A DNA stretch of 59,956 bases from an uncultured Flavobacteriales bacterium. GTDB lineage: Bacteria > Bacteroidota > Bacteroidia > Flavobacteriales_D > Sanyastnellaceae. Every line of letters begins with the position of its first letter. Within the stretch, counting starts at the first letter, position 1. Location: NCBI GenBank assembly GCA_937881575.1, contig CALGEI010000178.1:1-59956 (forward strand), given 5' to 3'. A model generated the notes under the pieces. The model ran no database searches and had not been told where the DNA came from. It saw nothing but the letters and a program-made list of their open reading frames with translations. A program made the translations under genes and the position numbers. Shown here piece after piece: positions 35,927 to 58,165 of the stretch.

Positions 35927-35968
35927 GGCAAGTTTTTAGGTGAGTTAATTCAAGGTAATTTAGGCCGA

Positions 35969-37219
35969 ATGTTACAACTATTCACTTCGAAGTCTCCAGG
36001 ACCTGTTTTGGGAACCTTCACCCTTCTACTCCTCTTGGCGGGTTGCAGCTCCTCCATCAATGAAATGGACAGTCCGCAAGCAATCTCCTGCATGCGCCAG
36101 TTTCATTTGCACTTTGACCCTTCTATGAATGCAGACTCGTTGCGCGCGATTGACGGCTGGGAGCGTTATGATGCAGGCCGATTGGTTGTTCAGCATTTTT
36201 CGAAGCCAGAATTTGAGCAAGCGCCTGAGGTCACACTCCACATGACCCTGCGATCAGCAGGTGATCCATGGGACAAATCAGGAACCGTCTTCATGATTCC
36301 GGCGGCGTCCAGCATCGATTTACGGGAGTTTGAAACAGGACGTCATGCGCTGGACACGGCCCAGCACTCCTACCCCGCTGTCCTCCCATTTAAAACCGCT
36401 GCAGGTGATGCTTATGTGCCCCCCATCGAACTGCTCCGATTCATCACTCCTTTTGGAGTGGGTCATTTCAGCGACAATGAACGTCTCGACGAATACCGCC
36501 CTGTTTATGTTCCCGCTTGGGCCGACTCTTCGTCATGGAGTGCTGACATTTCGCACTTGTGGGATTCGATGGACGACAGCATCGCTTTGGGTGTTTACAT
36601 AGACACATGGACTCCTGAAGGATACACCTTGGATCTCACGATGGATTTTGAACCGCATGCTGTGTTGCAGGATGAGGCGCCTCGAATGGCCTCATTGCCC
36701 TTGTTCAACACCACCAAATTAAGCTCGAAACAACAGCATTACGATGGCTTCGCTCATGGCAGTCTCCAAGTGGACTTTTCCATGCCTGCGGATGCCGCGG
36801 GTGTCACGCTTCATTATCATGCTACTGGGCATGGCGGACATGCCACCGGAGATGAGTTTGTTCGATGCGAACATCAGATCAAGTTGGACGGCACCCTGAT
36901 AGAATCGTTCACTCCGTGGAGAGACGATTGCGCGAGCTTCAGACGCTTCAACCCGTCTTCTGGGGTCTGGACAGAACGCACATTTTGGCGAGGAGATAGC
37001 ATCGATGAACGCATTGCTTCCAGTGATTATTCACGATCCGGTTGGTGCCCTGGAAGCCATGTGGAGCCATTGAGCTTTTCATTGCAAGGAATTTCAGCAG
37101 GGAATCACACGATCGAAATCTCCGTACCGACAGCACAGTCATTCACAGACACCGAAATGAATTTCTGGAATGTCGCCGGATATCTAACGCACATATCAAT
37201 CCCTGTCCAAGAACGTTGA
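35969..37219 (+). CDS. PNGase F-like lipoprotein
   Basis: 416 residues from ATG 35969, chosen because it places a lipoprotein signal (LLLLLAGC, Cys26) at the N-terminus; the frame is open to 35903. Both eight-strand domains of peptide-N-glycosidase F are recognisable: GDPWDKSGTVF, ELLRFITPFGVG and YIDTWTPEG, then ATGHGGHATGDEF and SRSGWCPGSHV. Compared with Elizabethkingia PNGase F from memory, D60 corresponds to D102 and E206 to E296, while E118 is replaced by D212. The family removes N-glycans from glycoproteins by hydrolysing the Asn amide. Activity here is probable but the E to D change is at a catalytic residue. Confidence 0.8.
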   Translation: MLQLFTSKSPGPVLGTFTLLLLLAGCSSSINEMDSPQAISCMRQFHLHFDPSMNADSLRAIDGWERYDAGRLVVQHFSKPEFEQAPEVTLHMTLRSAGDPWDKSGTVFMIPAASSIDLREFETGRHALDTAQHSYPAVLPFKTAAGDAYVPPIELLRFITPFGVGHFSDNERLDEYRPVYVPAWADSSSWSADISHLWDSMDDSIALGVYIDTWTPEGYTLDLTMDFEPHAVLQDEAPRMASLPLFNTTKLSSKQQHYDGFAHGSLQVDFSMPADAAGVTLHYHATGHGGHATGDEFVRCEHQIKLDGTLIESFTPWRDDCASFRRFNPSSGVWTERTFWRGDSIDERIASSDYSRSGWCPGSHVEPLSFSLQGISAGNHTIEISVPTAQSFTDTEMNFWNVAGYLTHISIPVQER

Positions 37220-39660: not shown

Positions 39661-40280
39661 TCAATTGAAGTTAAATCCAACAGACAATGTGACCCGATGT
39701 CCCGTTCCGCGTTCAATCACATTGGGTGGATCTTCACCCTTAAAATCTTCATGAAAATTGAAGATATCAAATGCCAAGTCACTCGTTCGTGTTGTTACCT
39801 TATCCGGTACAATCGAGAGATTGACGGGGAAGTTCAAGTCCCCTGAACGTACGTTGTATCCAATCGCAAAAACAAAGCTCAAACCCGAGAGTGAGAGATT
39901 GGGACCTGTTCCGAATTCGAAACCGCTCTTTCCACGAACACCGACCATTGTGGTCAATGAAGGTAAAAACATGCCCTTCTCCATTCCCGCTACCAAGCAA
40001 CCCATTCTACCAATCCTACGACGTCGCCTCCGTTGTCAGCGAAACGCTTCTCCCATTGCCACCCGTACTGCGTGGTAATCGTCGAGCCATCAGCATTCGT
40101 TGAAAACTCAGTAGAGTCCATCGAAAATTTTCGCTGCAAAATTTGAGACGTACTTCCGTCAGAAATGTACGAAACACCAAATCGTGGGCCTTCTAGTTGA
40201 ACCACCTGAGCATGAATTCCTTGTAAACCCAAGACTGCTAACAAGACAAATACTATCTTCTTCTTTTTTACAGAGTTAAT
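39661..40280 (-). pseudogene. Decayed outer-membrane beta-barrel protein gene (frameshift, no normal start)
   Basis: Two overlapping frames make one protein. Upstream part (to 39990): KKKKIVFVLLAVLGLQGIHAQ signal, then QLEGPRFGVSYISDGSTS and YGWQWEKRFADNGGDVVGLVEW, ending VAW-stop. Downstream part: LVAGMEKGMFLPSLTTMVGV, SGFEFGTGPNLSLSGLSFVF, YNVRSGDLNFPVNLSIVP, RVTLSVGFNFN. The reading shifts by one base between about 39994 and 40001; insertion of one base would give VEWVALVAGME. There is also no ATG, GTG or TTG before the lysine-rich n-region: the only codon after the in-frame TAA at 40284-40286 that could initiate is ATT at 40280, or TTG inside the hydrophobic core. Homologues of unknown function with this barrel are common in Bacteroidota. 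Confidence 0.75.
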
Positions 40281-40307: not shown

Positions 40308-40880
40308 TTATTCTGAGGGAGCGGCATTCGCTGCGGCGGCCGGAGCTGAATCTGCTGTGGCGTCTGCGGCCGAGTCTGCGGCCGAGTCTGCTTCGACTGG
40401 GCTTGGCGCTGGCGCTGGCGCTGGCGTAATATCTCGCCAAATTTCCACCTTAACCGCCGCTAATCCACGAGGTCCCTGCTCGGTTTCAAACCGAACCTTA
40501 TTGTTCTCTCGAACCTCTTCCTTCGTATTGTTCACGTGAACAAACACACTTTCTTGAGTCTCTAAATCACGAATGAATCCGAATCCTTTTGACTCGTTGA
40601 AGAAAGTCACAATTCCAGTACGGATTGGATCATACTCCTCCTCCTCTCTTTTTGGAATTCCAATTTCTATATCCTCAAGCTTTACCTCAACTCGGGTGCT
40701 CGGGTCTGGCGGGGTAGACGTGACTTGCCCGAATTCATCAACATAAGCAATCATATCGTCTGAATCCAAGGTCATCTTGTTTTCTTGACGCTCTAACTTC
40801 TTGACTTCCTTTTCTTTACGCTTCTTTTCCCGCTTGAGTTCGCGCTCGCGCTTACTGAATGATTGTTGAGACCTGGCCAA
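40308..40880 (-). CDS. Cold-shock-domain protein with charged N-terminus
   Basis: 190 residues. A highly basic, coiled-coil-like N-terminus (KRERELKREKKRKEKEVKKL) is followed by an acidic linker. The cold-shock domain spans about residues 88-150 (GIVTFFNESKGFGFIRDLE with the KGFGFI RNP motif, then SVFVHVNNT). The C-terminus is low-complexity Ala/Pro/Asp; at DNA level it includes a GGCGCT hexamer repeated at 40405-40426 and two identical GCGGCCGAGTCT blocks near 40370-40394. Such proteins bind single-stranded nucleic acid and act as RNA chaperones. Single gene with a TACCTTGC box upstream on the minus strand. Confidence 0.9.
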   Translation of the reverse strand: MARSQQSFSKRERELKREKKRKEKEVKKLERQENKMTLDSDDMIAYVDEFGQVTSTPPDPSTRVEVKLEDIEIGIPKREEEEYDPIRTGIVTFFNESKGFGFIRDLETQESVFVHVNNTKEEVRENNKVRFETEQGPRGLAAVKVEIWRDITPAPAPAPSPVEADSAADSAADATADSAPAAAANAAPSE

Positions 40881-40964: not shown

Positions 40965-42665
40965 TCAAGGGAAAAGCCATACCGCTATCGCATTGGCCAT
41001 ACCAGATGCATCGTGGCCAACTCCCTGCACTTCCATTAAATTCCAATTCAACTCAAGGGCCTGACTCTCCGCTGTGTTTTGACTGAGTTCCCAGAAATAC
41101 TGACCGCGATCAAATCGATTAAATCCTTGCAAATCCACGTCGGGATTGTGGATGGGACCAATCGGGTTGGTGTCCGCTGTTCCCAGGGAGATGATCAGTT
41201 GAGACGGCAGGGCTTCGTCAAGCGTTCTGCCATTCACCGGGGCGTCGAGCAGCCCGTACGGATAGGCTATCGGCAAATCGGGAACCGTATACCAACCGGA
41301 GTTGGCAGCGACCGCACGATCGACGAGTTCAGACCCGTGAAACAACATGAATCGATGAACGAATTGCCCCCCGGCACTGTGTCCCCATAAATCCATCTTG
41401 GGGTCCGCATTGCCCGTGCTGTCTTGAAAAGTGGCTAACATAGGCTCAACCAAGGCGAAGGTCCATTGAGTCACCGGACGTTCAACACCATCCGCATTGA
41501 AGACTCCGCCTTGCATGTACTCTTCGCTCCCGGGGAATCCACTGCTCGTGAATTCTGGAGCGACAATCAATAGGCCCATGGCATCTGCGATTGAAATCCA
41601 ATGATCTCGATACTCCGAGGCATTGCGATTGTTTCCATGGAACACCATGACCACCGGAGCATCCGAAGTCAAGCCCGCTGGAACGTGGTAGTGCAGATTG
41701 ATTGGAGTGTCCGCAAAGGGGGCGTAACCATCGAAGACAAACTGCCCTGTACCGGTCAAGAAGACCGCATCTTCTTCAGGGCAAGACTGGCCAAATGCGG
41801 TCAACATAAGGAGCACGTCGGAGACATCGACCAGTCCATTGTCGTTCAGATCGGCAGGACATGGATTGGTGGACGACCACTCACAGGTTCCGTCATCAAA
41901 CAGCGCTTGCGCATCAAAATTTATAGCCTGGTCGTAGGTGCAACCTGCCGCACTAAAAAACTGCACATAACTGCAGCTGCCATCTTCCTCATTGGCCAAC
42001 GGATTGTAATTGTCCGCGTGGGACTCGGTACAACCCGGAAGCAGCTCAATGCATGGATTCGCAAATTCACCCGCAGGAAAAGGAATCATTGCCGCTGCAT
42101 TGGTCTCCGAGGCGCCGATTGCCCCCATCGAAACGGTCCAATCAGCACCATTGAAGACGGCACTCGGCATGGATTCACAAGAACGCCATGCCCAGCCCAA
42201 TGTGTATTCCCAATCAAAGCCCGATCCATCCTGATTGGGATCGCCAAACGCATCAATCGCCCAATCGTTTTGGAAGAGTTCAATGGCGTCGTCTCCGTTG
42301 AAATTACAGGCCAATCCATCGTCAATGAAATCGGCTTCAAACCCAAAGAAAGAAGCAAATATTTCGGATTCTTTGGAGACATACAGGAATTCCCCTGCCT
42401 GGACAGCCATCGGTGGAAATGTCCATTCCACGCCGGCACTGCCTGACCCGTTGTTCGCGGTACCAAGCCCAAATTCGGACAAATCATCAATGTCTTCGAG
42501 AACAAAGCACTCCAAGGCTTTTGGTGCACCGGCCAAGCCACCATGCACTACACCGGTGATCTGCATGGCCGCGGGTGCTTGACTCCATGCATTGGAGCTC
42601 CACAAATTGAGCGCAAGAATCAACACGATCCAGCGCTGTTCATGAAGCCATCTGCCCAACATCAT
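40965..42665 (-). CDS. Secreted modular esterase: lamin-tail domain, GCT repeats, dockerin-like motif, alpha/beta hydrolase
   Basis: 566 residues; its ATG overlaps the preceding stop (ATGA). Signal peptide 1-29. Domains in order: lamin-tail-like domain about 35-175 (type B here; LECFVLEDIDDLSEFGLG, ACNFNGDDAIELF), two GCT...DDG/EDGSC repeats about 212-265, an EF-hand/dockerin-like segment about 270-297 (DLNDNGLVDVSDVLLMLTAFG), and an esterase about 310-566. In the last, the oxyanion region is FHGNNRNASEYRDHW, nucleophile GHSAGG, Asp in LGTADTN and His in GVGHDASG. The esterase is homologous to the stand-alone lipoprotein at 46017-46949. Poly(3-hydroxybutyrate) depolymerase-like, but substrate unknown. 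It lacks a T9SS domain at its end. Confidence 0.85.
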   Translation of the reverse strand: MMLGRWLHEQRWIVLILALNLWSSNAWSQAPAAMQITGVVHGGLAGAPKALECFVLEDIDDLSEFGLGTANNGSGSAGVEWTFPPMAVQAGEFLYVSKESEIFASFFGFEADFIDDGLACNFNGDDAIELFQNDWAIDAFGDPNQDGSGFDWEYTLGWAWRSCESMPSAVFNGADWTVSMGAIGASETNAAAMIPFPAGEFANPCIELLPGCTESHADNYNPLANEEDGSCSYVQFFSAAGCTYDQAINFDAQALFDDGTCEWSSTNPCPADLNDNGLVDVSDVLLMLTAFGQSCPEEDAVFLTGTGQFVFDGYAPFADTPINLHYHVPAGLTSDAPVVMVFHGNNRNASEYRDHWISIADAMGLLIVAPEFTSSGFPGSEEYMQGGVFNADGVERPVTQWTFALVEPMLATFQDSTGNADPKMDLWGHSAGGQFVHRFMLFHGSELVDRAVAANSGWYTVPDLPIAYPYGLLDAPVNGRTLDEALPSQLIISLGTADTNPIGPIHNPDVDLQGFNRFDRGQYFWELSQNTAESQALELNWNLMEVQGVGHDASGMANAIAVWLFP

Positions 42666-44197
42666 TGAATGAGTATGCGAATCAAACGACGCTCCGTAGC
42701 GTTTTCAAGTCGCAAGAAGTAACAGCCCGTTGCCAGCCCTGACAAATCAAGGGCAGATTGCAGAGCCTTGGACTCCCAATTGCGCATGCACTGCCCTTGT
42801 GTGTTCATGATCGCAGCACTCGCCAGTGGCTGAGATGACTCAATGAACAAGGCATCCGATGTCGGGTTGGGAAAACAGCGCGTAGACCAACCGATTTCGG
42901 CCACACCATCCGGATTGACCGTGACGTTGTAAGTGCCTATTGGGAACGGTTCATTGCTGAAACCATTCGAAATCGCACCATCCAAAGCATCCAAGCTACT
43001 CATCAACCAATTGGATTGCACGAACTGATACCCGTCTGGCCCTGTGCCATCAACGCGGTAAGCCCATCCGCCAGAATACTCCCATTCCGTGCCGATTCCA
43101 TCCACATTGATGTCACCAAAAACATCCACTCCCACTCCTGCTTCGAACAACTCAACCGCATCGTTGCCATTGAAATTACAAGCCGCTCCACCGTCTACAA
43201 ATGTTGGGGGGAACCCAAAGAAATCCGCAAAAGCGACCGTATCGTTAGCGACATAAATGAACGTGTTCGCATCCGCAGACTGATCCGGAAAAGTCCACTC
43301 AACTCCGTCCGTTCCTGCTCCATTTTGTGCGGTGCCGATGGCATACTGGGCCAAAGTCTCAATGTCGTCCGTTACGTAAAACTCTAGCATTTTAGGAGCT
43401 GCACCATGGTGCACAATCCCTGTCAAAATCAGTGAGTTGGAAGGAGTGAAAACTTGTCCCAAACAATTACAGTTTTCGTCCAATGCGTCAAATACCGTCA
43501 TCGGGTTGAGATCATCGCATTCGTCACCAGGGTACACGCAGCTGAGGTCATCAACTGTCGCCTCCGCGTCGAAGTTGCAGGATGTCGTGTCCATGCAACC
43601 GGGAATGCCTTGAGCATCATCGCAAAGCGGATAGGGGCAGCTCGAATCTTCTGTGGTTGCTCCAGAAGAACAACCGACAGCGGCCGTTTCCCATTGTCCC
43701 GATTCGGACTGATACGCCCACGAGTCTGCATAGTCCCAAGAGGTGCCAGTTCCATCTTCATCGGCGTTACCATACGTTTCAACCACGCCACCATTGTGGT
43801 ACAATTCAATGGCATCGTTGCCATTTTGATTGATCGTTGAAGGAGCCACGAGGACCGATTGAAACTCTCCGATGCAAGCACCGAAATAAGCACTCATCGC
43901 AGCCGTTGAACGCGCCAACAACACATGCTCTCCCGCGGCTAAGGCCTGAGCAGGGAATGTGTATTCTTCCCCATCCGTGCCTCCCCCGTTGTTTGCAGTG
44001 CCCAGTCCATAGACACTCAGATCGGCAATGTCCTCGACAGCATAGACATGAATGGCCTTTCCATCCGAACCTCCGGATGGAACATCAAAGTCCATGACAC
44101 CCTGCAAGCGCAAGGAATCCAATTCAAGAGAAGCAAAACCCAATTGAGCGGAAAACAATAACGTTCCGAGAAGCGAAAATGACCTGAATAATTTCAT
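42662..44197 (-). CDS. Secreted protein with two lamin-tail-like domains and T9SS sorting domain
   Basis: 511 residues from MKLFRSFSLLG, chosen because it starts a signal peptide; the frame is open 60 bases further up. First domain about 27-195 (LQGVMDFDVPSGGSDGKAIH, NQNGNDAIELYHNG) resembles those of the neighbour at 44293; second about 255-420 (LTGIVHHGAAPKMLEFYVTDD, ACNFNGNDAVELF) resembles the one in the gene at 40965. One GCMDTTSCNF repeat between. C-terminus (RCFPNPTSDALFIESS to RRLIRILIQ) is a type A T9SS sorting domain. Role unknown; lamin-tail domains often occur in secreted esterases and nucleases. Confidence 0.85.
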   Translation of the reverse strand: MKLFRSFSLLGTLLFSAQLGFASLELDSLRLQGVMDFDVPSGGSDGKAIHVYAVEDIADLSVYGLGTANNGGGTDGEEYTFPAQALAAGEHVLLARSTAAMSAYFGACIGEFQSVLVAPSTINQNGNDAIELYHNGGVVETYGNADEDGTGTSWDYADSWAYQSESGQWETAAVGCSSGATTEDSSCPYPLCDDAQGIPGCMDTTSCNFDAEATVDDLSCVYPGDECDDLNPMTVFDALDENCNCLGQVFTPSNSLILTGIVHHGAAPKMLEFYVTDDIETLAQYAIGTAQNGAGTDGVEWTFPDQSADANTFIYVANDTVAFADFFGFPPTFVDGGAACNFNGNDAVELFEAGVGVDVFGDINVDGIGTEWEYSGGWAYRVDGTGPDGYQFVQSNWLMSSLDALDGAISNGFSNEPFPIGTYNVTVNPDGVAEIGWSTRCFPNPTSDALFIESSQPLASAAIMNTQGQCMRNWESKALQSALDLSGLATGCYFLRLENATERRLIRILIQ

Positions 44198-44292
44198 GAT
44201 AAGCCGTATGTAATTTATACCTGCAAGATGACGAAAAACTCGAAATCTCACACGCAAAATTGAAACAATTCAAACGACCCTGAGACCAGCTA

Positions 44293-45876
44293 TTATTCAC
44301 AATTGGTTCCAAACACAGAGAGGAAGTACAGCAAATCTGGCGTCGCCACCAAACCATCGTTATCCAAGTCACCCATGCAGCTTGAGGCCTCTACGACACA
44401 AGACCCGTCGTCCGTGTTGGCCAATGCGTCATAATTGCTTGCCGCCTCATATCGACATCCCCAAACCTTGAGCGTCGAACACGTGCCGTCATCGGCGTTG
44501 GCATACGGGTCAAATTCCATGTAAAAAGGATCGGTGCACCCCCCAATAAAACACAGGGGATACACACAAGCCGATTCGAAGGTCGTTGTGCCCTCGTCTG
44601 TACAATTCACACCTCCGTATGTCCACTCTCCGTTCGTTTTGAATGCCCACGAGTCCAAATATTCCCATGCTTGACCGGTGCCGGATGCATCCACATCACC
44701 AAACACTTCGATGGTGATTCCCGATTCAAACAATTCAATGGCATCGTCTCCATTCTGAGAAATGCTCGAATTCGCAAGAAGCACGTGCTCAAAACTGGCA
44801 TAACACCCTTCGAAGTACGCTTCCATATCAACCGGTGATCGAGCCACCAGGATGTCATCTCCTGCACTCACCGAAATGGCTGGAAAAGTGTACTCCTCAC
44901 CATTCGTACCTCCACCATTGTTGGCCACTCCAAGTCCAAAAACACTGATGTCCGCCACGTCCTCTAGCGCAACCACGTGGATCGCTTTTCCATTCGAACC
45001 CGCTGATGGAACCGTGAAGTCCATGACACCTTGGAGCATCAGCGCATTGGTCAAACTTCCCGTGTCATAGATGCAACTTCCGTCGTCCGCATTGGCCCCG
45101 TCATCAAAGTTGAGCGCATCCACATCCGTACATCCGCCAAACAGACAGCAATCTTCGCATGCGGTATTGGCCGCTTCATCATAGTTGTCAGCACCTGACG
45201 TCATGCAACCAACCATGACTGCCTCACAGGAACCGTCGTCCACCGTTGCATTCGGATTGTAGTTGAATGCCAATTCATCTGTGCACCCAGGAATGTCATC
45301 GGGCACATCGCACATGGGGTAAGGGCAATTGCTATCGAATGTCGTGGTGCTTCCGTCGGAACAATCGATTCCGCCATACGTCCAAGCTCCATCAACCTTG
45401 TATGCCCAAGAATCCAAGTAATCCCAGTCTTGCCCGGAACCATCCACATCCACGTCACCGAAAATCTCAACCACCACGCCCTCTGCATACAATTCAATGG
45501 CATCATCACCATTTTGGCTAATGGCACCCGACGCGTCAACAAAGACATGCTCAAACTCCCCAAAACAGGTAGTGAAATACGCTTCCATGGCCGACAAAGT
45601 TCGCACGACAAGAATGTCATCCCCTGCCGATACGCTGGACACAGGGAAGGTGTATTCTTGGCCATCTGTACCGCCTCCATTGTTTGCAACTCCAATCCCA
45701 TAGAGGCTCAAGTCTGAGACATCATTGACCGCAATGAGGTGAACGGCCTTGCCGTCAGATCCCCCAGTGGGCACCGTGAAATCAATGACCCCTTGCAAAG
45801 CCAAGTCATTTTGACCCAACATGGCCGAAGAAAACAAAACTCCTAAAAAGCTAAAAAAAATAGATAGATTCGACAT
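44293..45876 (-). CDS. Secreted protein with two nearly identical lamin-tail-like domains and C-terminal dockerin-like motif
   Basis: 527 residues, signal peptide 1-22 (ending MLGQ). Lamin-tail-like domain 1 about 25-190 and domain 2 about 282-440 share long stretches (FTVP..GS.GKA.H, VANNGGGT.G.EYTFP, SAGDDILV.R, SQNGDDAIEL) and so derive from an internal duplication. Between and after them are GCTD/GCMTS..NY..DDGSC repeats. The protein ends in CMGDLDNDGLVATPDLLYFL-type residues, an EF-hand/dockerin-like motif with no T9SS domain, which leaves its export and anchoring route unclear. First gene of the three-gene minus-strand set. Confidence 0.85.
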   Translation of the reverse strand: MSNLSIFFSFLGVLFSSAMLGQNDLALQGVIDFTVPTGGSDGKAVHLIAVNDVSDLSLYGIGVANNGGGTDGQEYTFPVSSVSAGDDILVVRTLSAMEAYFTTCFGEFEHVFVDASGAISQNGDDAIELYAEGVVVEIFGDVDVDGSGQDWDYLDSWAYKVDGAWTYGGIDCSDGSTTTFDSNCPYPMCDVPDDIPGCTDELAFNYNPNATVDDGSCEAVMVGCMTSGADNYDEAANTACEDCCLFGGCTDVDALNFDDGANADDGSCIYDTGSLTNALMLQGVMDFTVPSAGSNGKAIHVVALEDVADISVFGLGVANNGGGTNGEEYTFPAISVSAGDDILVARSPVDMEAYFEGCYASFEHVLLANSSISQNGDDAIELFESGITIEVFGDVDASGTGQAWEYLDSWAFKTNGEWTYGGVNCTDEGTTTFESACVYPLCFIGGCTDPFYMEFDPYANADDGTCSTLKVWGCRYEAASNYDALANTDDGSCVVEASSCMGDLDNDGLVATPDLLYFLSVFGTNCE

Positions 45877-45905
45877 AGCTTAAGATTTTACTGATATAAT
45901 CGATG

Positions 45906-45935
45906 TCAAGATAATAATTTATTTTTTCATATCAA
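45906..45935 (-). promoter_or_regulatory. Promoter of the lamin-tail gene set
   Basis: On the minus strand: TTG at 45935-45933, 19 bases, then TATCTTGA at 45913-45906, followed by ATG at 45876. Spacing fits the Bacteroidota promoter exactly; two bases of the -7 box deviate from TAnnTTTG. Confidence 0.55.
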
Positions 45936-45968
45936 ACTTGAATGAATGATAACCAGGCTTTTAAAAAA

Positions 45969-45997
45969 ATTCAACCAACAATCAGTCATTGTTGAAT
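45969..45997. repeat. Imperfect inverted repeat in divergent intergenic region
   Basis: ATTCAA-ccaa-CAAT at 45969-45982 pairs with ATTGTTGAAT at 45988-45997 across a 5-base loop, with a 4-base bulge. It lies 20 bases before the ATG of the stand-alone esterase and opposite the lamin-tail promoter. It could be an operator or 5' leader hairpin. Confidence 0.3.
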
Positions 45998-46016
45998 TGC
46001 CCCTTATTTTTACCCC

Positions 46017-46949
46017 ATGCCGATATTATCTATACATCGCAACGGCACCCTCCTTGCCTCGCAGGCCTTTCTATTCTTGCTCTTGGCTTCTTTTTCGTTG
46101 AGCGCATGCCGTGTTCCTGAGGAGGGGATCTTTTCCAACCCCGAGAACTTTAGCCTCACACGCGGCTCGGGCTCTTTTGATTTTGACCAAATCCCAGATC
46201 CCACCAAACCCGCCATTGCCGTTCATTACTTCATTCCCCAGACGGGAGAAATTACGGAAATGCCTATTCTCATTGGCTTCCATGGAGCCGACCGCAATGC
46301 CGCTGGATATCGCAATGTGTGGGAGGCCATCGCCGAAGAAAAAGGCTGCATGGTCTTCTTCCCCGAATTCACTGATGAGGCCTATCCAGGAAGTGCCTTC
46401 TACCAGCAAGGAAACATTCTCGCCTTCGGCCAAGTCACGCCTCAAACGGAATGGAGCATTTCCACCATTGCCCCGATGTTCGAAGACATTCTTGACCGGA
46501 CAGGTAGCCCTCAAATTCAATTTGATGTTTGGGGACATTCTGGGGGAGCTCAATTTGTCAACCGACTGATGATCTTCGGTGGAGAACTGAAAGTCAGAAC
46601 GGCCATCGCATCCAACGCGGGTTGGTACACCGTTCCCTACATGGAACAGGATTTTCCCTATGGCCTCACCAGCAGTCCGATTCAACTGAGTGACTTGGCG
46701 ACTCCTTTCTCCTATGATTTCAGGATACATTTAGGAACCGCGGACACGGCCTTCAATGATACGGGTTGGTCGGGAGCGTTTGTTCAAGGTGACAGCCGAT
46801 ACAGCCGTGGCTTGTTCTTTTTCAACCAAGCTGCACTTTCCGCTCAAAACGAGCTCCTTGGTTTCAACTGGTCCCAGGTCGATGTTCCTGGAGTTGGACA
46901 CGATCACATCTCCATGGCGACGCATGCTTCAGACGTACTCTATCCCTAA
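46017..46949 (+). CDS. Esterase lipoprotein, stand-alone homologue of the modular esterase
   Basis: 310 residues with a lipoprotein signal (ASFSLSAC, Cys31). The catalytic elements mirror the esterase domain of 40965-42665: oxyanion GFHGADRNAAGYRNVWEAIA, EFTDEAYPGSAFYQQG, nucleophile GHSGGAQFV near residue 182, SNAGWYTVPYMEQDFPYGLT, Asp in HLGTADTAF and His in GVGHDHIS. PHB depolymerase-like alpha/beta hydrolase, likely facing the periplasm or outer surface. Divergent from the lamin-tail set. Confidence 0.85.
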   Translation: MPILSIHRNGTLLASQAFLFLLLASFSLSACRVPEEGIFSNPENFSLTRGSGSFDFDQIPDPTKPAIAVHYFIPQTGEITEMPILIGFHGADRNAAGYRNVWEAIAEEKGCMVFFPEFTDEAYPGSAFYQQGNILAFGQVTPQTEWSISTIAPMFEDILDRTGSPQIQFDVWGHSGGAQFVNRLMIFGGELKVRTAIASNAGWYTVPYMEQDFPYGLTSSPIQLSDLATPFSYDFRIHLGTADTAFNDTGWSGAFVQGDSRYSRGLFFFNQAALSAQNELLGFNWSQVDVPGVGHDHISMATHASDVLYP

Positions 46950-46971
46950 ATTGTCTTTAAATTCTAACCCC

Positions 46972-47772
46972 ATGCTCTACTTTTCTTTCACTCGCAAGCA
47001 ACCAGCGTTGGCCTTTCTCTTTAGCGGATTGATCGGAGCCTTATTTTTGATCGGCTGTGCAAAAACAGATGATGTTGAGACGATTGTCCCAGAAGACCCT
47101 ACGGTAGGGTTCGATTTCTTGGTGCCAGATCGAGCATTCGGAGAATACCTGGTTTTCCTAGGGATCAACGGAGTCCAAGAACGAACCGACACGTTGGCAA
47201 CGGGTGCGGTGCAGGTCAATTACTACTTAAACCCCAGCCTTGTTCTGGGTGTAAACAGTTTGCAACTGAGTAAAACAAGCGGGTCCGTTGCGGCCCTGGA
47301 GGCAGCCGGTGTCGCCACAGCCTCACAAAAAATCATGGATCTTTCCGGAGTGGAATTTTTCACTGGACTGGACACGTTGGTCATTACATCCAATGACCTC
47401 ACTTCATTGGACCTGAGTGGCAACCCCACCTTATTGGAGTTGAGTATGAATTTCTGCAAGGTGGAAGCCTTGGATCTCACCGGTTGCCCGTTGCTTCAAA
47501 AACTGAGATTTCGAGGCTCATCCCAAGCCGATGCTCTTCTCGAAACCATTGACTTAAGTCAGAATACGGCCCTCAGACACCTGCACCTTCGATCGCACAA
47601 TTTCACATCGATTGACTTGACCAATAACGTTCAACTTGTGGAGGAGATTGACTTATCGAGCAATCCTGGCCCAGATGGAGATGTCAATACAGGAGACATT
47701 GTGATTCCCACCAGCATTTACGAGAATGTTCAAGGAGCTGGGGGCATCCTGATGGGCGTCATTCCAGGGTGA
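46972..47772 (+). CDS. Leucine-rich-repeat lipoprotein
   Basis: 266 residues from MLYFSFTRKQ; an upstream in-frame extension overlaps the esterase and is rejected. Lipoprotein signal ends ALFLIGC (Cys33). Residues about 115-230 are internalin-like leucine-rich repeats (LDTLVITSNDLTSLDLSGNPTL, LELSMNFCKVEALDLTGCPLL, LRHLHLRSHNFTSIDLTNNVQL). Protein-binding surface lipoprotein, partner unknown. Its stop TGA overlaps GTG just upstream of the transporter start, so it is coupled to dcuC-iadA. Confidence 0.82.
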   Translation: MLYFSFTRKQPALAFLFSGLIGALFLIGCAKTDDVETIVPEDPTVGFDFLVPDRAFGEYLVFLGINGVQERTDTLATGAVQVNYYLNPSLVLGVNSLQLSKTSGSVAALEAAGVATASQKIMDLSGVEFFTGLDTLVITSNDLTSLDLSGNPTLLELSMNFCKVEALDLTGCPLLQKLRFRGSSQADALLETIDLSQNTALRHLHLRSHNFTSIDLTNNVQLVEEIDLSSNPGPDGDVNTGDIVIPTSIYENVQGAGGILMGVIPG

Positions 47773-47774
47773 TA

Positions 47775-49142
47775 ATGGCATTCGCTCTGGCCATTGCCTT
47801 CATAGTTTCCATTGCTGCCGGTTATTTCATGGTGCGAGGAAGGCATCCGCAACTCATCTTAGCCGGTGCCGGATTGGTCATGTTAGCCTGCTCCCTGTTA
47901 CTCGGAGGAAGCGGGACAGCCGACCAGTCGACAGGGTTGGCTTTTTTTGACCTGTTTCGGTCCGTTACAGAGTCCCTCAAATCCAAACTATCCGGAATCG
48001 GCGCCATGATCATGGTCATCGCTGGATTCGTTTCATACATGGACTACATGGGGGCCACTGCCGCACTGGTACGCATCGGAACCAAGCCCATATCCGTGCT
48101 GAAACGCTGGCCATACCTCGCCGCTGTCGCTGTTATCCCACTTGGACAACTCCTCTCCTTGTGCGTGCCCAGTGCTGCGGGATTGGGTCTTTTGATGATT
48201 GCGACAGTTCACCCCATCCTCATTCGAATTGGCGTTTCGAAAATCACATCCGTCTCCATCATCGTTCTCTGCACTTGCTTCGACATGGGGCCCGCATCCG
48301 CCAATACGGCCCGAGCCGCTGAGCTTTTGCAAATGGACAATGTTCAATATTTCGTGGCTTCACAACTCCCGTTGGCCACCATGCTCACGTTTGCTCTGAT
48401 GGTGTTTGTCTATTTTCAATCGAAATATTTGGACTCCCGGATGTCTTCTGATCAGCCCTTGGCACAACAGACAGCTACTGCCGATGACGCTGCATCTCCT
48501 TTGGCCTACGCTATCCTGCCTGTATTGCCGCTTATTTTATTGATGACATTCAATGCATTCTTTCAAACTGGAGAGCATCCGATCGTGTTGGACACCACCA
48601 CGGCCATGCTCATTTCGCTCTTTGTCAGCATGGCATTCCATGGACTTGTCGCTCGCAATGTACGGGAGCTAGAATCCGGGATCATCGCTTGCTGGAACGG
48701 GATGGGACGTGCCTTTAGTACCATCATCACATTGATTGTGGCAGCCGATATTTTCGCGTCTGGCCTGATTGCATTGGGATTGATTGATGGGCTGCTTGTG
48801 TTGAGCAACGCCATGGGCTGGGGTGCGATTGGTATTTTGACCCTTTTCATTGCGCTGATTTTCTTTGCTTCCATCTTGATGGGAAGTGGCAATGCCTCCT
48901 TTTTTGCCTTTGGCCCGCTCATTCCTGACTTGGCAAGAACCTTGGGAATTCCGGGAATAAAGTTCCTACTCCCCATGCAGTTGGCCTCCAGCATGGGACG
49001 TGCCGCTTCGCCAATTGCAGGCGTTGTCATAGCGACTGCGGGGATTGCAGGAGTTAATCCCATGCACGTCGCACGCCGCAACCTTTTGCCCATGATGTTG
49101 CTTTCCTTCCTCATGGTCCTGATTCAACAATTCGCCACATGA
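47775..49142 (+). CDS. DcuC-family C4-dicarboxylate transporter
   Basis: 455 residues from ATG 47775. About 12 hydrophobic helices with family blocks LSGIGAMIMVIAGFVSYMDYMGAT, PLGQLLSLCVPSAAGLGLLM, MGSGNASFFAFGPLIPDLA and MQLASSMGRAASPIAGVVIA. DcuC/YfcC-like proteins move C4-dicarboxylates such as succinate, fumarate or aspartate. The next gene starts inside its stop codon (ATGA), which ties transport to isoaspartyl dipeptide breakdown. Confidence 0.88.
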   Translation: MAFALAIAFIVSIAAGYFMVRGRHPQLILAGAGLVMLACSLLLGGSGTADQSTGLAFFDLFRSVTESLKSKLSGIGAMIMVIAGFVSYMDYMGATAALVRIGTKPISVLKRWPYLAAVAVIPLGQLLSLCVPSAAGLGLLMIATVHPILIRIGVSKITSVSIIVLCTCFDMGPASANTARAAELLQMDNVQYFVASQLPLATMLTFALMVFVYFQSKYLDSRMSSDQPLAQQTATADDAASPLAYAILPVLPLILLMTFNAFFQTGEHPIVLDTTTAMLISLFVSMAFHGLVARNVRELESGIIACWNGMGRAFSTIITLIVAADIFASGLIALGLIDGLLVLSNAMGWGAIGILTLFIALIFFASILMGSGNASFFAFGPLIPDLARTLGIPGIKFLLPMQLASSMGRAASPIAGVVIATAGIAGVNPMHVARRNLLPMMLLSFLMVLIQQFAT

Positions 49143-50278
49143 TTCTCCTTAAAAACGCCTCAATACACGCTCCCCAATTCTTGGGAAAGCAAGATGTCTT
49201 CATCGCTCAAGGAGTCATCCAAGCCATTCAACCAGAACTCGAGATTACCGGGGTGCCTGGCTTGGAGGTTCATGATCTCAATGGCGCGATGCTCACGCCT
49301 GGATTCATTGACCATCACATCCACATTACAGGAGCCGGTGGCAAATATGGTTTTGGATCCATGACCCCCGAAGTGCACATTCGGGATCTCGTGGCGTGCG
49401 GCACAACAACCGTTGTGGGGCTGTTGGGAACGGATGGTACCGCGCGCAGTTTGAACACGCTGTATGCCAAATGTGCCGCATTAGAAGACGAGGGAATTAC
49501 CGCGCGCATGCTGACCAGTTTTTTCGGGCTGCCTGTCAAAACATTTACCGGAAACGTGCACGATGACCTGCTCTTTATCGACCGGGTAGTCGGATGTAAG
49601 ATCGCCATCGCAGACACGCGCTCATCGTATCCAAGCGCCAAAGAGTTGCTTGCTTTGCTGCGTGAAATCCAGGTTGGCGGCATGATTTCTGGCAAAGGAG
49701 GCGTGCTGCACATCCACCTCGGAGCGCTCCCTGAAGGCATGGAGCTGCTGTTCGATTTGGTGGAGCAATATCACGTGGACATTCGAAGGCTCTCCCCGAC
49801 CCATGTTGGACGGACCGAAGCGCTATTCACACAAGCACAGGCGTTCGCTAAGTTGGGCGGAATGGTGGACTTATCGACTGGAGGTACTCAATTCATTCCG
49901 CCATGGAAGGCCATCGAGTTGGCCAAAAACAACGGTGCTGACCTCGGTCAATTCACCTTGAGCAGTGATGGCAATGCCGGGATTGGCGTGCTCGACAAGA
50001 CGGGGCAATTGACTGGATTCAAAAAAGCTCCCATCGACCTCAATTTATGGAACGTGCAGCAATTGATCCGTGAAACGGAAGTGACTCCGGAAGAGGCCAT
50101 TGGACTGGTGACAAGCGGACCGGCCAAAACCATGGGGCTTCACACCAAAGGACGGCTGGCCGTCGGTATGGCTGCGGATTTCTGCATTTTCGATACCGAG
50201 TGGGAACACACCGGAACGATCGCGCGAGGAGCGTTCTTGAAACGAGACGGGGAAGTCCTCGTTCAGGGGAACTTTTAA
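49139..50278 (+). CDS. iadA: Isoaspartyl dipeptidase (beta-aspartyl peptidase)
   Basis: 379 residues of the amidohydrolase superfamily. Metal ligands are in place: DHHIHITG (two His near residue 60), the carbamylated lysine in GCKIAIADTRSS near residue 157, LHIHLG near residue 190, SPTHVGR near residue 220 and the Asp in LSSDGNAG near residue 280. Hydrolyses beta-aspartyl (isoaspartyl) dipeptides from damaged or cyanophycin-type proteins, yielding aspartate. ATGA overlap with the transporter gene indicates an operon. Confidence 0.94.
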   Translation: MILLKNASIHAPQFLGKQDVFIAQGVIQAIQPELEITGVPGLEVHDLNGAMLTPGFIDHHIHITGAGGKYGFGSMTPEVHIRDLVACGTTTVVGLLGTDGTARSLNTLYAKCAALEDEGITARMLTSFFGLPVKTFTGNVHDDLLFIDRVVGCKIAIADTRSSYPSAKELLALLREIQVGGMISGKGGVLHIHLGALPEGMELLFDLVEQYHVDIRRLSPTHVGRTEALFTQAQAFAKLGGMVDLSTGGTQFIPPWKAIELAKNNGADLGQFTLSSDGNAGIGVLDKTGQLTGFKKAPIDLNLWNVQQLIRETEVTPEEAIGLVTSGPAKTMGLHTKGRLAVGMAADFCIFDTEWEHTGTIARGAFLKRDGEVLVQGNF

Positions 50279-50346
50279 TTCAGACCCGTCTTGTGGATTG
50301 GAGTGAGACGCCAAAGGCCGAACTCTCGCATTAGCGCATTGCCTCT

Positions 50347-51600
50347 TTAGAACTGGAGCTGAACCAACACTTGACCACTCCAACCATTTTTAGCTGGTGT
50401 GTTGAAATAATTGAGGTAATCTCCGCCGAGCTGTACTTTCATGGCATTGCCCCGGTTAAACCAGGTCAGACAAGCCCCAACCGCGTCAACCGTTTCCAAT
50501 ACAGACTCCTCATTGGATTCAAACTCTGGAAATGACTGGGAAAACCGGCCGTTCACGGCCCATTTACCATCAATGGTCACCCCCAATTGAGCTTGGTATG
50601 CATTGCCCAACACCAAATACTCGCTGATTTGCTCACTCACCAACGACTCTCCATTGGCGGGATTCGTATAGGCCCCTTGTAAATTGTAGGCCGCTGCGTT
50701 GACATATTCAACCAAGAGCGTTGCCCTTTTCCACTTCAGCATCGCATCGACATAGTTCTTGAGATACTGCGGAAGTTGGTCTTGGCCATCCACCGTGTAC
50801 AACCCAAAAGCACCATGGCTTTCACCGACCGGACCACTCGCACCGTCGTTCCAACTCGATGCTCCACCCAGGACCAGTTTTGGAGTGGACTCTCCAATCA
50901 AATCGAACCCTGTCATCTCATTGCCCTCTGAAAAGCGTCCAAACGGATACACGTCCAAGCGACCGCCATATTTCAAACCGCCACGGTCTACATCGTTGGA
51001 CAACAATCCAAAACTGTTCATTCCATCTCCTGAAGTGACGGACAACATCGGAACAAGTCGGGCCTTGCCCAAACTCAAATCTGCTTTAACTGCCACACCA
51101 AATTCCCGCCCCGTCTGAGCAAACGCTGTACTGACCATCGACCGATTGAGCATGGCCAAATCGCCTTCGAAAAAGAGCATTTCTCGGTTGTTGGCGATGG
51201 ACTGAAACTGACCAATGGTTGCGGTGAAGACATTGTTGATTTGAGCCACCATGTATGCATCCAACAATGGACGCTCAGCCGCAAAGTCAGAACGAATCAA
51301 AAAGGAAACACCCTTTTCGCGATCGGATGCGCTGAATTCGATGTACGAACGCTGGATGTAAAAACTGCGCTCCAAATCACCGGATTCAACCTGAGATAAG
51401 TTGACCACTGGTTGAAGCAACCCACCCAGACCAAACGTATACATCCCATCTGAGAAGGACACTTCCAAACCATCACCAAGACTCAATTCCGCGCTGCCAT
51501 CGGAAGCACGTTCCAAGTCCTCATCTTCCGATTGAGCCCACAGCACGTGAGCACACAACACACACACAACGAGCAATCCAGTTTGCAATCGATTCTTCAT
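50347..51600 (-). CDS. O/P-type (phosphate-selective-like) porin
   Basis: 417 residues with a signal peptide ending WAQ (residue 23). Beta-barrel of the phosphate-selective porin O/P family: FYIQRSYIEFSASDREKGVSF, ATIGQFQSIANNREMLFF, RGGLKYGGRLDVYPFG, TPKLVLGGASSWNDG, and a final strand ending VLVQLQF. It is homologous to the porin at 53138-54448. 9 bases from the M14 peptidase stop, so co-transcribed. Confidence 0.82.
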   Translation of the reverse strand: MKNRLQTGLLVVCVLCAHVLWAQSEDEDLERASDGSAELSLGDGLEVSFSDGMYTFGLGGLLQPVVNLSQVESGDLERSFYIQRSYIEFSASDREKGVSFLIRSDFAAERPLLDAYMVAQINNVFTATIGQFQSIANNREMLFFEGDLAMLNRSMVSTAFAQTGREFGVAVKADLSLGKARLVPMLSVTSGDGMNSFGLLSNDVDRGGLKYGGRLDVYPFGRFSEGNEMTGFDLIGESTPKLVLGGASSWNDGASGPVGESHGAFGLYTVDGQDQLPQYLKNYVDAMLKWKRATLLVEYVNAAAYNLQGAYTNPANGESLVSEQISEYLVLGNAYQAQLGVTIDGKWAVNGRFSQSFPEFESNEESVLETVDAVGACLTWFNRGNAMKVQLGGDYLNYFNTPAKNGWSGQVLVQLQF

Positions 51601-51608
51601 GACAGCTG

Positions 51609-53138
51609 CTATTTTAATGTGGGTTTGATCACCCTCAGAATTGGAATGGTATTTTCAATCTCAAGAACACGGTATCGAATCAGCCCACAGTGAGCCTCTG
51701 GCTCCAGGCATTCTATCGCCAAATTGAATCGCTCTTGATCCGCAGGGACCCACCATCCATCCGCGGGCAAATCCATGTCTTCGCTTTCGGTCGTTGCGGA
51801 TACTATTCGCTCCTGGAATCCCTCGAAAAAATCAGCTTTCAGTCGGTTCTCCGTGATCACGTAGCGCTCCACTTCGTATTGCCCCATGGGCAGAGGCTCC
51901 ACTTCCACATCCAATATGCGCAGCTTTTCGATGACATGTGCGGCCTCTGGCAAGATGATATAGGCCATTGGACGTGAACGAATCAACTGCGGAGACAAGG
52001 CCAATCCATCGTGTTTTTCAATGTCAAAAGTCCGCAGGGAACCGTCCGACAAATCGATGAAATCCAGTTGGGACTGGGTGACTTTTTTAGATGATTCAAT
52101 GACAACATCCTGACGAGCATTTCTTCCCTGTTCGCGCGCCATCTGAATCGCGACCTTGGAGTGGTGCGCTGATTTCAAGAAGCTTGAGGCCAAGAGGTAG
52201 CCCGTTTCCACGCGGCGCTCAAACCCTTTGCGCTGCAAACCCACCCCCCGAATTTCCATCAATACCGACAGGCTATTGGCCAAGGCGAAAGACGTGGAAC
52301 TCGAATGAGCACTTGTGGCGCCGACATCGAAGCGCATGTTGCCCCGAATCACCACGGGCCGGATGTAATTGTGGAAGCGCCTTCCATGGGCTGCGAGCGT
52401 TTTACGGGCCGGATCAACGAGCAATGTCTCTGTTGCCTCCCGGATGGGTTCTGCCACATTCAAGTTGCCGGTGTACAAAAACATGGCGTCAAAGGCCGAT
52501 GTGACTCCAAAGGTTCCCATGGAAACGAAATCGGAACGATACGGCTTGTATTCGTGGAAATCCACCACGACGTCAGCGTCAAAAGCCGCATAGGCCTTCT
52601 TTAAAAACACCACCTCCTGGTTCACCAACTTGGTTTGATCCCGATTGAGATCCAATCCATTGGCAGCGTAACGATTTTGCTTGTCATATCCATCTGGATT
52701 GGCCATCGGAATGACCAACAATTCCACCGCATCCAGATAGCTATTCAGATGCCCTTCCTCTGACAACTGCTGCATGAACGCCAACAAAGCTTCAGTGCCC
52801 GCTGGTTCATTGCCATGAAGTCCACCCAAAAAAAGCACTCTAAGTTTGTCTGCGCCAGCAGAAGAACGCACACCCCAGATCACCTTTCCTTTGGCACTCA
52901 TCCCCAGCGAATCCATGGACAGGTTGCTCGAATTCTGAACCAATTCGAGCAAGAAATGCTCCATGGTCTCATGCGTCGTAAAACCCCGCTTGGTGTCAAA
53001 TGCAGGGGTCGTATACGTGGTGTCTGGAACGGGAAAGTACGTTTCTTGGATTGCCCGTGGGTCCTGCCCGCTCAATTCTAGGGCACTGCATGCCATCAAC
53101 CCCAGCACTCCCCAGAAAATTGGACTCGAAATTCGCAT
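51609..53138 (-). CDS. M14 zinc carboxypeptidase, lipoprotein
   Basis: 509 residues from MRISSPIFWG; its ATG overlaps the upstream porin stop (TAATG). Signal with GLMAC lipobox. Metal-binding HxxE is in GGLHGNEPAGTE (H108, E111), followed by the substrate-binding DLNRD near residue 164 and the third zinc ligand H195 in VDFHEYKP. Cleaves C-terminal residues from peptides (or murein peptides in related amidases). Sits between two porin genes, suggesting extracellular peptide digestion coupled to uptake. Confidence 0.88.
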   Translation of the reverse strand: MRISSPIFWGVLGLMACSALELSGQDPRAIQETYFPVPDTTYTTPAFDTKRGFTTHETMEHFLLELVQNSSNLSMDSLGMSAKGKVIWGVRSSAGADKLRVLFLGGLHGNEPAGTEALLAFMQQLSEEGHLNSYLDAVELLVIPMANPDGYDKQNRYAANGLDLNRDQTKLVNQEVVFLKKAYAAFDADVVVDFHEYKPYRSDFVSMGTFGVTSAFDAMFLYTGNLNVAEPIREATETLLVDPARKTLAAHGRRFHNYIRPVVIRGNMRFDVGATSAHSSSTSFALANSLSVLMEIRGVGLQRKGFERRVETGYLLASSFLKSAHHSKVAIQMAREQGRNARQDVVIESSKKVTQSQLDFIDLSDGSLRTFDIEKHDGLALSPQLIRSRPMAYIILPEAAHVIEKLRILDVEVEPLPMGQYEVERYVITENRLKADFFEGFQERIVSATTESEDMDLPADGWWVPADQERFNLAIECLEPEAHCGLIRYRVLEIENTIPILRVIKPTLK

Positions 53139-55712: not shown

Positions 55713-55748
55713 ATAAACTAGGTTTAAGCGCCCAAATCAACTGCTGAC

Positions 55749-56621
55749 TTAAGGAGCTGCTGTAAAAATTAAAGTAAACCAACCATCAGTCTGCTGGCAA
55801 TCCCCAGATTGCGTAGGACCGTGAATCACCAAGCGATCTTCTGTGATCTCGATGATGTCATAATAGGGACCTGAATCCCAAATCCCCATGAAGCCACAAA
55901 GCGTTTCACTGAAGGCAGCCAAGTTGATTTGATCTTCGCCTGAAGTTCCTGAACCTGGCGTCAAAAAGTACGTCGAAGGTGGGATTTCAAGCTCCGTCTC
56001 TACATATCCATCGAAAGGATTCATGGTACTTCCGTTGTTGTTGTACAGATAAGCTCCATCCTCTGTGAATTGGTAGCGGTCGTCATCCTGGAATTCAGTT
56101 TGACCATTTGGAGGAGAGCTGTACCATTCCGTTGAATACGGCGCAGGCCCGACTGAAACCGCTCCGATTTCTGTCGAAAGCTTCCACGATTTCTGGTTGT
56201 CACATCCTGTGAGCAACGCCAACGTGCCTTCGCAAGGAAGCTCCAACGTTTGCGCAATCGACACCATCGCCGAAGCTTGTCCCATGCCGCCATTGGTATG
56301 CACAGAGTATGAAACATCATAATCTCCTTCAACAGGATAATACGCTGTATCCATAGGTTGATCGGACGTCATCCCATTGCCAAAATCCCAAAGGTGCAAG
56401 AATGCTCCTTCCACGGCTTCAGCAGAGACCGCGATGCGGTTGGAATCGACACCAATAACGGTGCCCGTTGAATCCAACGCATCAATGAATTCCCATTGAA
56501 TGGAAGTGACCGGAGCTCCAGGCAAATCGATGCCTTCATCTTCATAAGGAGCGCATTGACTGAGGATCAAAGCACATGCAGAAACCACTGTGACCGAACT
56601 GAATTTTATAACCTTCAACAT
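55749..56621 (-). CDS. PKD-domain surface lipoprotein of the SusCD locus
   Basis: 290 residues from MLKVIKFSS, one base behind the SusD stop; an overlapping ATG at 56633 is possible. Signal with ILSQC lipobox (Cys23). Residues about 28-125 are a PKD domain (WDFGNGMTSDQ, PVEGDYDVSYSV). The rest (SWKLSTEIGAVSVGP, YQFTEDGAYLYNNNG, EDRLVIHGPTQ) resembles glycan-binding surface proteins. Position after susD and before GH16 points to a beta-glucan-binding role, inferred. Confidence 0.8.
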   Translation of the reverse strand: MLKVIKFSSVTVVSACALILSQCAPYEDEGIDLPGAPVTSIQWEFIDALDSTGTVIGVDSNRIAVSAEAVEGAFLHLWDFGNGMTSDQPMDTAYYPVEGDYDVSYSVHTNGGMGQASAMVSIAQTLELPCEGTLALLTGCDNQKSWKLSTEIGAVSVGPAPYSTEWYSSPPNGQTEFQDDDRYQFTEDGAYLYNNNGSTMNPFDGYVETELEIPPSTYFLTPGSGTSGEDQINLAAFSETLCGFMGIWDSGPYYDIIEITEDRLVIHGPTQSGDCQQTDGWFTLIFTAAP

Positions 56622-56622
56622 A

Positions 56623-58155: not shown

Positions 58156-58165
58156 GATTCTGCGA

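Follow-up and report, generated by a model that had tools for sequence, protein, structure and literature searches.

Hydrolases of the PahZ1 family are known from Sphingomonas sp. KT-1 and Pedobacter sp. KP-2 (Protein Data Bank, PDB, entries 6ve6 and 9o7u). According to the passages of the literature drawn on here, these reference enzymes have been studied on synthetic thermal poly-aspartate, no natural role being stated there, and that of KP-2 cuts beta-amide but not alpha-amide bonds, needs three aspartyl units in its subsites and leaves beta-Asp dimers uncut (PMC4456602). Among open-licence papers, a scope that left most of the subscription literature outside, we found no report on the genes that surround PahZ1 or on its natural substrate. 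In one clade of Bacteroidetes, genes for cyanophycinase, IadA and a transporter have been described as a "cyanophycin utilization locus" (Ben Hania 2017, as cited in PMC10206079). Here we describe a locus built around two PahZ1-family genes in a stretch of 59,956 nucleotides (the window) from an uncultured Flavobacteriales bacterium (assembly GCA_937881575.1, contig CALGEI010000178.1). Positions 40965-54448 hold a conserved set of about ten genes, which probably serves the catabolism of an anionic polymer whose units are beta-linked C4 diacids, either beta-aspartyl or beta-malyl. An initial annotation had covered 40965-46949, roughly half of the locus, and had interpreted it as a locally evolved surface system in which lamin-tail domain (LTD) proteins may bind a polymer or the cell surface and present an esterase.

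Gene content, hydrolases and lamin-tail domains

The four open reading frames (ORFs) previously listed are all present at their coordinates, and the conserved locus reaches 54448. Its genes are the following:

40965-42665, minus strand: LTD of type B, GCT motifs, dockerin-like piece and PahZ1-family hydrolase (LTD-B 42063-42572, hydrolase 40965-41756)
42662-44257, minus strand: exported LTD protein, A-B with a type IX secretion system (T9SS) type A sorting tail, from ORF, Pfam and TIGR04183 (A 43622-44122, B 42926-43438, tail about 42662-42874)
44293-45876, minus strand: exported LTD protein, A1, GCT repeats, A2, GCT, dockerin-like (A1 45310-45810, A2 44551-45048)
46017-46949, plus strand: second PahZ1-family hydrolase, presumably a lipoprotein (PDB matches in phmmer, orthologue group)
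46972-47772, plus strand: leucine-rich repeat (LRR) protein, presumably a lipoprotein (LRR matches below curated cut-offs, orthologues)
47769-49142, plus strand: DcuC-family C4-dicarboxylate carrier (NF037994, 338.9 bits against a cut-off of 100)
49139-50278, plus strand: IadA-like amidohydrolase (TIGR01975, 329.7 bits; PDB IadA, 9.7e-80; ATGA overlap with the DcuC gene)
50347-51600, minus strand: outer-membrane porin B (similar to porin A)
51609-53174, minus strand: exported M14 zinc carboxypeptidase (PF00246, 62 bits against 21.6; likely start an ATG at about 53138)
53138-54448, minus strand: outer-membrane porin A, Porin_O_P family (PF07396, 27 bits against 20.9)

For the 42662 protein, an ATG near 44197 is a likelier start than the ORF limit at 44257. 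The two lipoprotein calls are based on what we take to be lipoboxes, LSAC in the 46017 protein and LIGC in the 46972 protein. Junctions between the 46017, LRR, DcuC and IadA-like genes are short or overlapping, and the ATGA coupling proposed for 42662 and 40965 is seen in the sequence as an overlap. Porin B gave no Pfam match at E<=0.1 and resembles porin A at 5e-29 in the near-identical locus L044; the computed isoelectric point of porin A is 9.1. The M14 residues H120, E123, H207 and E307 are invariant in every aligned row with a letter at those positions.

Both hydrolases are assigned to the PahZ1 family, with a predicted activity, because sequence matches, fold and catalytic residues agree. 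In phmmer searches of the PDB, the 40965 hydrolase matched 6ve6 at 2.2e-55 and 9o7u at 3.6e-49, and the 46017 hydrolase matched the same entries at 1.6e-42 and 2.7e-35. The fold comparison covers the fusion protein encoded at 40965, the lipoprotein being placed by sequence; the LTD half of the full-length model was poor (predicted local distance difference test, pLDDT, under 50), and the hydrolase half alone was used. In Foldseek this half matched 9o7u with a template modelling (TM) score of 0.93 (root-mean-square deviation, rmsd, 1.5) and 6ve6 with 0.92-0.93, followed in third place by LpqC (0.83-0.84), while the first match outside the PahZ1/LpqC group reached 0.57. Furthermore, Ser430, Asp498 and His551 (numbering of the 40965 protein), named as the catalytic triad by alignment and knowledge of the fold, are invariant in an alignment of 42 rows (37 from fetched loci, two from the window, three from the PDB), both window proteins and the references included. 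Arg347, Arg517, Arg520, Gln513 and Trp541 are likewise invariant, and Arg438 is Arg in 41 of the 42 rows. Of 41 loci given to the ORF caller, 37 yielded a PahZ1 ORF and four (L029, L031, L038 and L043) did not, owing to overlapping longer ORFs or weak similarity; L022, which is the same contig as L049, was dropped from the 42-row set. Identity to the two PahZ1 references is 38.4% and 36.0% for the fusion domain and 34.8% and 31.3% for the lipoprotein domain, compared with 40.1% between the references.

The hydrolase domains recognised earlier are therefore real, but PahZ1-family hydrolase is a better name for them, by sequence and fold, than esterase. Indeed, a generic esterase or polyhydroxybutyrate (PHB) depolymerase was rejected, as PahZ1 structures rank first and the cut-offs of the polyhydroxyalkanoate (PHA) depolymerase models are far off for 40965 (TIGR01840, 29.6 bits against 107.85; NF050058, 33.7 against 150) and likewise not reached by 46017 (12.6 and 32.2 bits). 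The two window hydrolases are 37.6% identical to each other, and in the tree the fused copy groups with the fused copy of G029, a genome of the same family (support 100/99), and 46017 with the lipoprotein copies of G029, G002 and G019 (100/99). They are old paralogues, and a recent local duplication was rejected on the basis of the low identity and separate orthologue groups.

Three consecutive minus-strand genes carry five related LTDs, and the module orders described for them (A-A in 44293, A-B with the T9SS tail in 42662, and B, GCT, dockerin-like and hydrolase in 40965) were confirmed; GCT motifs are also present in the 44293 and 42662 proteins. Identities of 57-63% for A-A, 45% for B-B and 34-44% for A-B pairs lie far above chance and bear out the relatedness of the domains across genes. 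The sorting tail of 42662 scores 37.7 bits with PF18962 (cut-off 27) and 33.1 with TIGR04183 (cut-off 23). An AlphaFold model of A1, built from a ten-row alignment (mean pLDDT 78, predicted TM score 0.78), matched lamins at ranks 1-15 of a Foldseek search of the PDB with probability 1.00, the best E-value being only 5.8e-3. The superposition of A1 on lamin B2 in VIA-align 2 gave Z 9.3 and rmsd 3.2 over 113 aligned positions, and 12 of the top 13 rows were lamins, the remaining one being a DUF4876 protein. The shared lamin-tail fold that structure prediction was expected to reveal is thus supported. The lamin-tail model PF00932 did not match the three whole LTD proteins of the window at E<=1, so that its gathering score was not reached; it matched two of ten separate LTD domains weakly (best 5e-4), and exceeded its cut-off in proteins of the related loci L077 and L078. 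According to these models, the window LTDs are of a divergent lamin-tail type.

The dockerin-like assignment was the weakest part of the earlier interpretation. A single short motif is present, with one PDB dockerin at E 0.15, but no Pfam dockerin matched the three LTD proteins at E<=1, and the cohesin model PF00963 found no match at E<=0.01 in the genome, which is 99% complete; a cellulosome-like dockerin system was rejected on the latter ground. The 44293 protein matches 81 places in its own genome, mainly through its GCT and dockerin-like parts, and GCT-repeat and dockerin-like modules are scattered over many contigs of this genome, in which no cohesin match was found. An LTD profile, in contrast, gives seven matches there, of which five lie in the locus; the other two are on contigs C157 (strong) and C79 (weak). 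The module specific to the locus is the LTD and not the GCT module. In G025, of the same family, a 964-residue protein with four tandem A-type LTDs (L050:11366-14260) adjoins an LTD-PahZ1 fusion, and in G392 a single protein with LRR, Calx-beta and Pfam-level LTD domains (L077:9178-10797) occupies the slot of the window's LRR lipoprotein.

Conservation and gene order across genomes

Among 60 near genomes screened, the window's own included, PahZ1-like genes occur in eight, which makes them a patchy trait; besides the window's own genome, the carriers are five of 21 further members of its genus, as well as G025 and G029. The same surrounding gene set is found in all eight carriers, syntenic in seven and rearranged in G025, with some loci cut by contig ends. 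Of 394 genomes sampled evenly across the phylum, 20 carried PahZ1-like genes, nine IadA and four both (0.46 expected), in all four cases within about 8 kb of each other; if the window and its family mate G025 are removed, two such genomes are left and P is 0.037. In the class sample of 395 genomes, IadA occurs in 12 and PahZ1 in 15 (G605 being scored as positive from a contig-edge fragment of 71 residues), and all 12 genomes with IadA carry PahZ1 (0.46 expected; hypergeometric 1.8e-20, relatedness ignored). These 12 genomes span nine genera and seven families, and both genes lie on one contig within about 8 kb in 11 of them, whereas in G556 they are split over two contigs, near the ends.

We inspected 22 loci, the window being one of them and two, L025 (a Bacteroidia metagenome-assembled genome, MAG) and L032 (a Mediterranea MAG), belonging to a named genome collection; the 22 are not independent, since two pairs, G020 with the window and G008 with G009, are near-identical. 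DcuC is present in all 22 and M14 in 21, the contig of G637 ending before M14. Both porins occur in 17 loci, a single porin in G002 and none in G637, the latter two at contig ends. LTDs were found in 18 loci, and not in L025, L032 and G707, nor in G737 within the stretch fetched. L025, L032 and G707 are also the three loci in which SusC/SusD adjoins DcuC and in which no porins were found. The locus therefore exists in two versions, one with LTD and porins and the other with SusC/SusD. PahZ1 and M14 form a single ORF in L032 (8854-11460, 868 residues) and in G707 (L103:10803-13832, 1009 residues). A MocR-type regulator with a pyridoxal phosphate (PLP) fold is found in 11 of the 22 loci, that of G025 sitting next door in stretch L051. 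Ten loci have a dicarboxylate carrier of the DASS or SDF type, and nine an LRR-type protein in the same slot as in the window.

This conserved gene order was one of the checks suggested for the earlier interpretation, and the absence of synteny that would have refuted it is not what was observed. The order nevertheless decides against local evolution of the system, since it recurs in other families. The same follows from the hydrolases, which group with the orthologues of other species (100/99 each), and from the two domains of 42662, which share 71-73% identity with their LTD orthologues from a different genus of the family but 57% and 45% with their nearest paralogues in the window.

PahZ1 also occurs in other settings, which are in line with the catabolic reading. 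In a Brevundimonas MAG it adjoins a relative of PahZ2 (7ljh, 5e-130), and in Pyrinomonadaceae a PahZ2-like M20 peptidase lies near PahZ1 together with a DASS carrier (L042) or is joined to it in one ORF with an SDF carrier nearby (L041:8687-10747). PahZ1 is accompanied by a peptidase-T-like M20 and M14 in L082, L084 and L087, while none of these partners was seen in several other PahZ1 loci (e.g. L080, L085 and L089). In Arthrobacter (L024 and L027), a PahZ1-like gene directly follows PGA_cap (CapA-like), ABC transporter and DUF1611-like P-loop genes, a possible polymer-making setting. A biosynthetic poly-amino-acid locus was rejected in this case, as the P-loop gene looks DUF1611-like (sub-threshold) rather than ligase-like.

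The IadA-like enzyme and the proposed function

The IadA-like protein falls narrowly below the TIGR01975 cut-off of 331.25, and the IadA-like proteins of the 22 loci form one clade with support of 100/100. All 22 keep H68, H70, K162, H201, H230 and D285, the binuclear metal ligands of IadA, as well as the substrate arginines R169 and R233. Glu77 and Tyr137 are present in all five IadAs used for comparison, which are those of E. coli and 7cdh and the products of three Bacteroidota genes located apart from PahZ1; two further genes of the latter kind (G299 and G413) lie outside this set. At position 77 (E. coli numbering), the cluster proteins have Lys in 18 cases, the window included, and Gln in four; at position 137 nine have Phe, again including the window, and the other 13 Tyr. 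As described in passages on the Colwellia enzyme, Glu80 contacts atom N11 of beta-isoaspartyl lysine, the E80Q mutant has no activity and Y140F retains under 10% (PMC5517026). We infer that N11 is the alpha-amino nitrogen. Since the matching mutants are inactive or weak, a classical isoaspartyl dipeptidase step is unlikely in the locus, and the substrate is probably no ordinary isoaspartyl dipeptide. The loss of Glu77 makes a substrate without a free alpha-ammonium group most likely, such as a malyl unit (the oxygen isostere), aspartyl in N-acylated form or the end of an oligomer, and for the same reason we argue that the last intermediate would be other than plain beta-Asp-Asp.

The occurrence of PahZ1-like hydrolases with DcuC, an IadA-like enzyme, M14 and two porins in one locus suggests polymer feeding. 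Families, the LTD and PahZ1 folds, synteny and residue changes were computed, whereas the substrate, the site of each protein and the sequence of events are inferred. At the cell surface, LTD proteins would retain the polymer or the enzyme, and the secreted LTD-PahZ1 fusion would cut the chain internally. The two porins could then pass acidic oligomers through the outer membrane, to be shortened by the PahZ1 lipoprotein and the M14 carboxypeptidase; DcuC would import the C4 products, and the cytoplasmic IadA-like amidohydrolase would split the last dimer-type linkage. We favour this interpretation because PahZ1 at the outside, porins, an exopeptidase, a C4-dicarboxylate carrier and, inside, an IadA-type enzyme are the parts that full use of such a polymer needs. 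An exported multi-domain hydrolase system, as originally proposed, does fit the export signals, the T9SS tail, the two lipoproteins and the LTD-hydrolase fusion; binding to the cell surface likely misses the point, which would be feeding on a polymer.

We make no firm choice between aspartyl and malyl units but lean towards the former, since PahZ1 and PahZ2 take their names from poly-aspartate, PahZ1 is linked to PahZ2 elsewhere, and half of the inspected loci carry MocR-type regulators, a class usually tied to amino compounds. Poly-beta-malate, with an ester in place of the amide, is a natural polymer with marine and terrestrial producers, and bacteria grow on it, as stated in passages of PMC9210645. 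The bacterial polymalate hydrolase known from the same source, from Comamonas, has 43 kDa and no serine-esterase activity (PMC9210645); in these respects it does not resemble PahZ1, which lends no support to a polymalate substrate and is no strong argument against one.

Several observations weigh against this function. Those at positions 77 and 137 make the dipeptidase step after which the IadA family is named unlikely in the locus. The LTDs are strongly acidic (Lys plus Arg 1.2-1.9%), which would be surprising in domains that bind a polyanion unless metal ions take part, and which speaks against simple charge attraction; their role in binding or anchoring is proposed because of gene position, export signals and fusion to a hydrolase only. 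PahZ1 occurs without IadA in 16 of the 20 carriers of the phylum sample and three of the 15 of the class sample, and the genomes are related, so that the counts are not independent.

Among the alternatives, scavenging of aged protein survives best, although we consider it unlikely. PahZ1-like and IadA-like enzymes would here open isoaspartyl bonds in old peptides, which ordinary proteases do not cut, and a combination of IadA family, M14 and DcuC would feed on Asp-rich peptides, in line with the preference of PahZ1 for the beta-linkage reported in the available passages of PMC4456602. However, the three-Asp requirement given there for the KP-2 enzyme would leave isolated isoaspartyl residues uncut if the enzymes behave alike, and the IadA-like enzyme has lost Glu77.

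Less probable still is a new type of cyanophycin utilisation, in which PahZ1 would replace cyanophycinase and IadA would split beta-Asp-Arg. The recorded cyanophycin utilization locus gives this idea a precedent, the acidic LTDs could suit an arginine-rich polymer, and the genome carries one gene of the S51 family. This sole match lies on contig C112, however, whereas the locus is on C178, and three of ten carrier genomes searched had no S51 match. Moreover, the alpha-amino group of beta-Asp-Arg is free, but Lys or Gln replaces the Glu that would bind it in all 22 loci, and the carriers are of the C4-dicarboxylate and not the basic-amino-acid type.

A display system for polyesters of the PHB type, or for a general esterase, is very improbable: the sub-threshold PHA depolymerase matches and the third-ranking LpqC, titled PHB depolymerase, point that way, but the curated cut-offs are far from reached, PahZ1 structures come first, and four (nearly) invariant arginines and the dicarboxylate carriers point to an acidic substrate. 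Equally hard to credit is a chance neighbourhood of two unrelated modules, an LTD-PahZ1 array and a DcuC-IadA-porin-M14 set; the strands diverge in the window and PahZ1 lacks the rest in many genomes, but the modules are linked in 11 of 12 class genomes from seven families despite rearrangements, and PahZ1 and M14 share a single ORF in two loci.

Returning to the beta-linked C4-diacid polymer, a more specific version can be put forward tentatively, at somewhat less than even confidence. The locus would be dedicated to a natural beta-linked C4 polyacid (poly-beta-malate, an undescribed polymer resembling beta-poly-aspartate, or an N-blocked aspartyl polymer), the change of Glu to Lys or Gln in the IadA clade would mark a new enzymatic step, one acting on a dimer that lacks a free alpha-amino group, and LTD proteins and porins would replace SusC/SusD. 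PahZ1, known from synthetic poly-aspartate, would then point to a natural polymer of similar chemistry, which aquatic and gut Bacteroidota may meet often enough to keep a system for capture, cutting, import and splitting, as the conserved locus suggests. Four or five purified proteins would allow a direct test of the natural substrate. Furthermore, bacterial lamin-tail domains gain a repeatable genomic setting, and a new activity is predicted for an IadA clade that automatic annotation probably labels isoaspartyl dipeptidase.

Neighbouring genes and comparison with known systems

Adjoining the PahZ1 locus, 54525-59887 on the minus strand holds Calx-beta/GH16, PKD, SusD and SusC genes, a separate locus of glycan type; the SusC/SusD pair itself (56623-59887) lies beyond the GH16 and PKD genes, outside the conserved unit. 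On the other side are a Peptide-N-glycosidase F homologue (35903-37219, plus strand; PF09113 8.9e-44, PF09112 2.7e-36) beside a BD-FAE-type esterase (34664-35926), an apparent small exported protein split over two frames (39661-40244, minus strand; 39661-40005 and 39990-40244) by a frameshift or assembly error, and a cold-shock-domain protein whose N-terminal part is long and charged and whose tail is rich in Ala and Pro (40308-40880, minus strand).

The closest relatives of the hydrolases, the KT-1 and KP-2 enzymes, share their fold and catalytic triad at 31-38% identity; here, one copy is fused to an LTD, the other is a lipoprotein, and both are embedded in a larger locus. The IadA-like protein resembles E. 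coli IadA (1onw) and Colwellia CpsIadA over its whole length and has the metal ligands and two substrate arginines in common with them, but differs in Lys or Gln at position 77, in Phe at 137 in nine of 22 proteins, in its separate clade and in a score just below the cut-off. The fold of the LTDs is that of PF00932 lamin-tail domains as in ExeM exonucleases; those of the window are divergent and tied to PahZ1 loci instead of nucleases, the ExeM match being sub-threshold (35.7 bits against 1300).

At the level of whole systems, surface capture, cutting, outer-membrane passage and inner-membrane import would be common to this locus and to polysaccharide-type SusC/SusD loci, and three of the 22 loci do use SusC/SusD. 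In the others the LTD proteins (18 of 22) and both porins (17 of 22) are found instead, and the target is probably no sugar polymer. The cyanophycin utilization locus, as far as it is described in the cited source, likewise combines a polymer-cutting enzyme, a member of the IadA family and a transporter in the same phylum. By analogy, the present locus would work in the same manner but is a different one: it has no cyanophycinase but PahZ1, M14, LTD proteins and porins, and its IadA lacks the amino-binding Glu.

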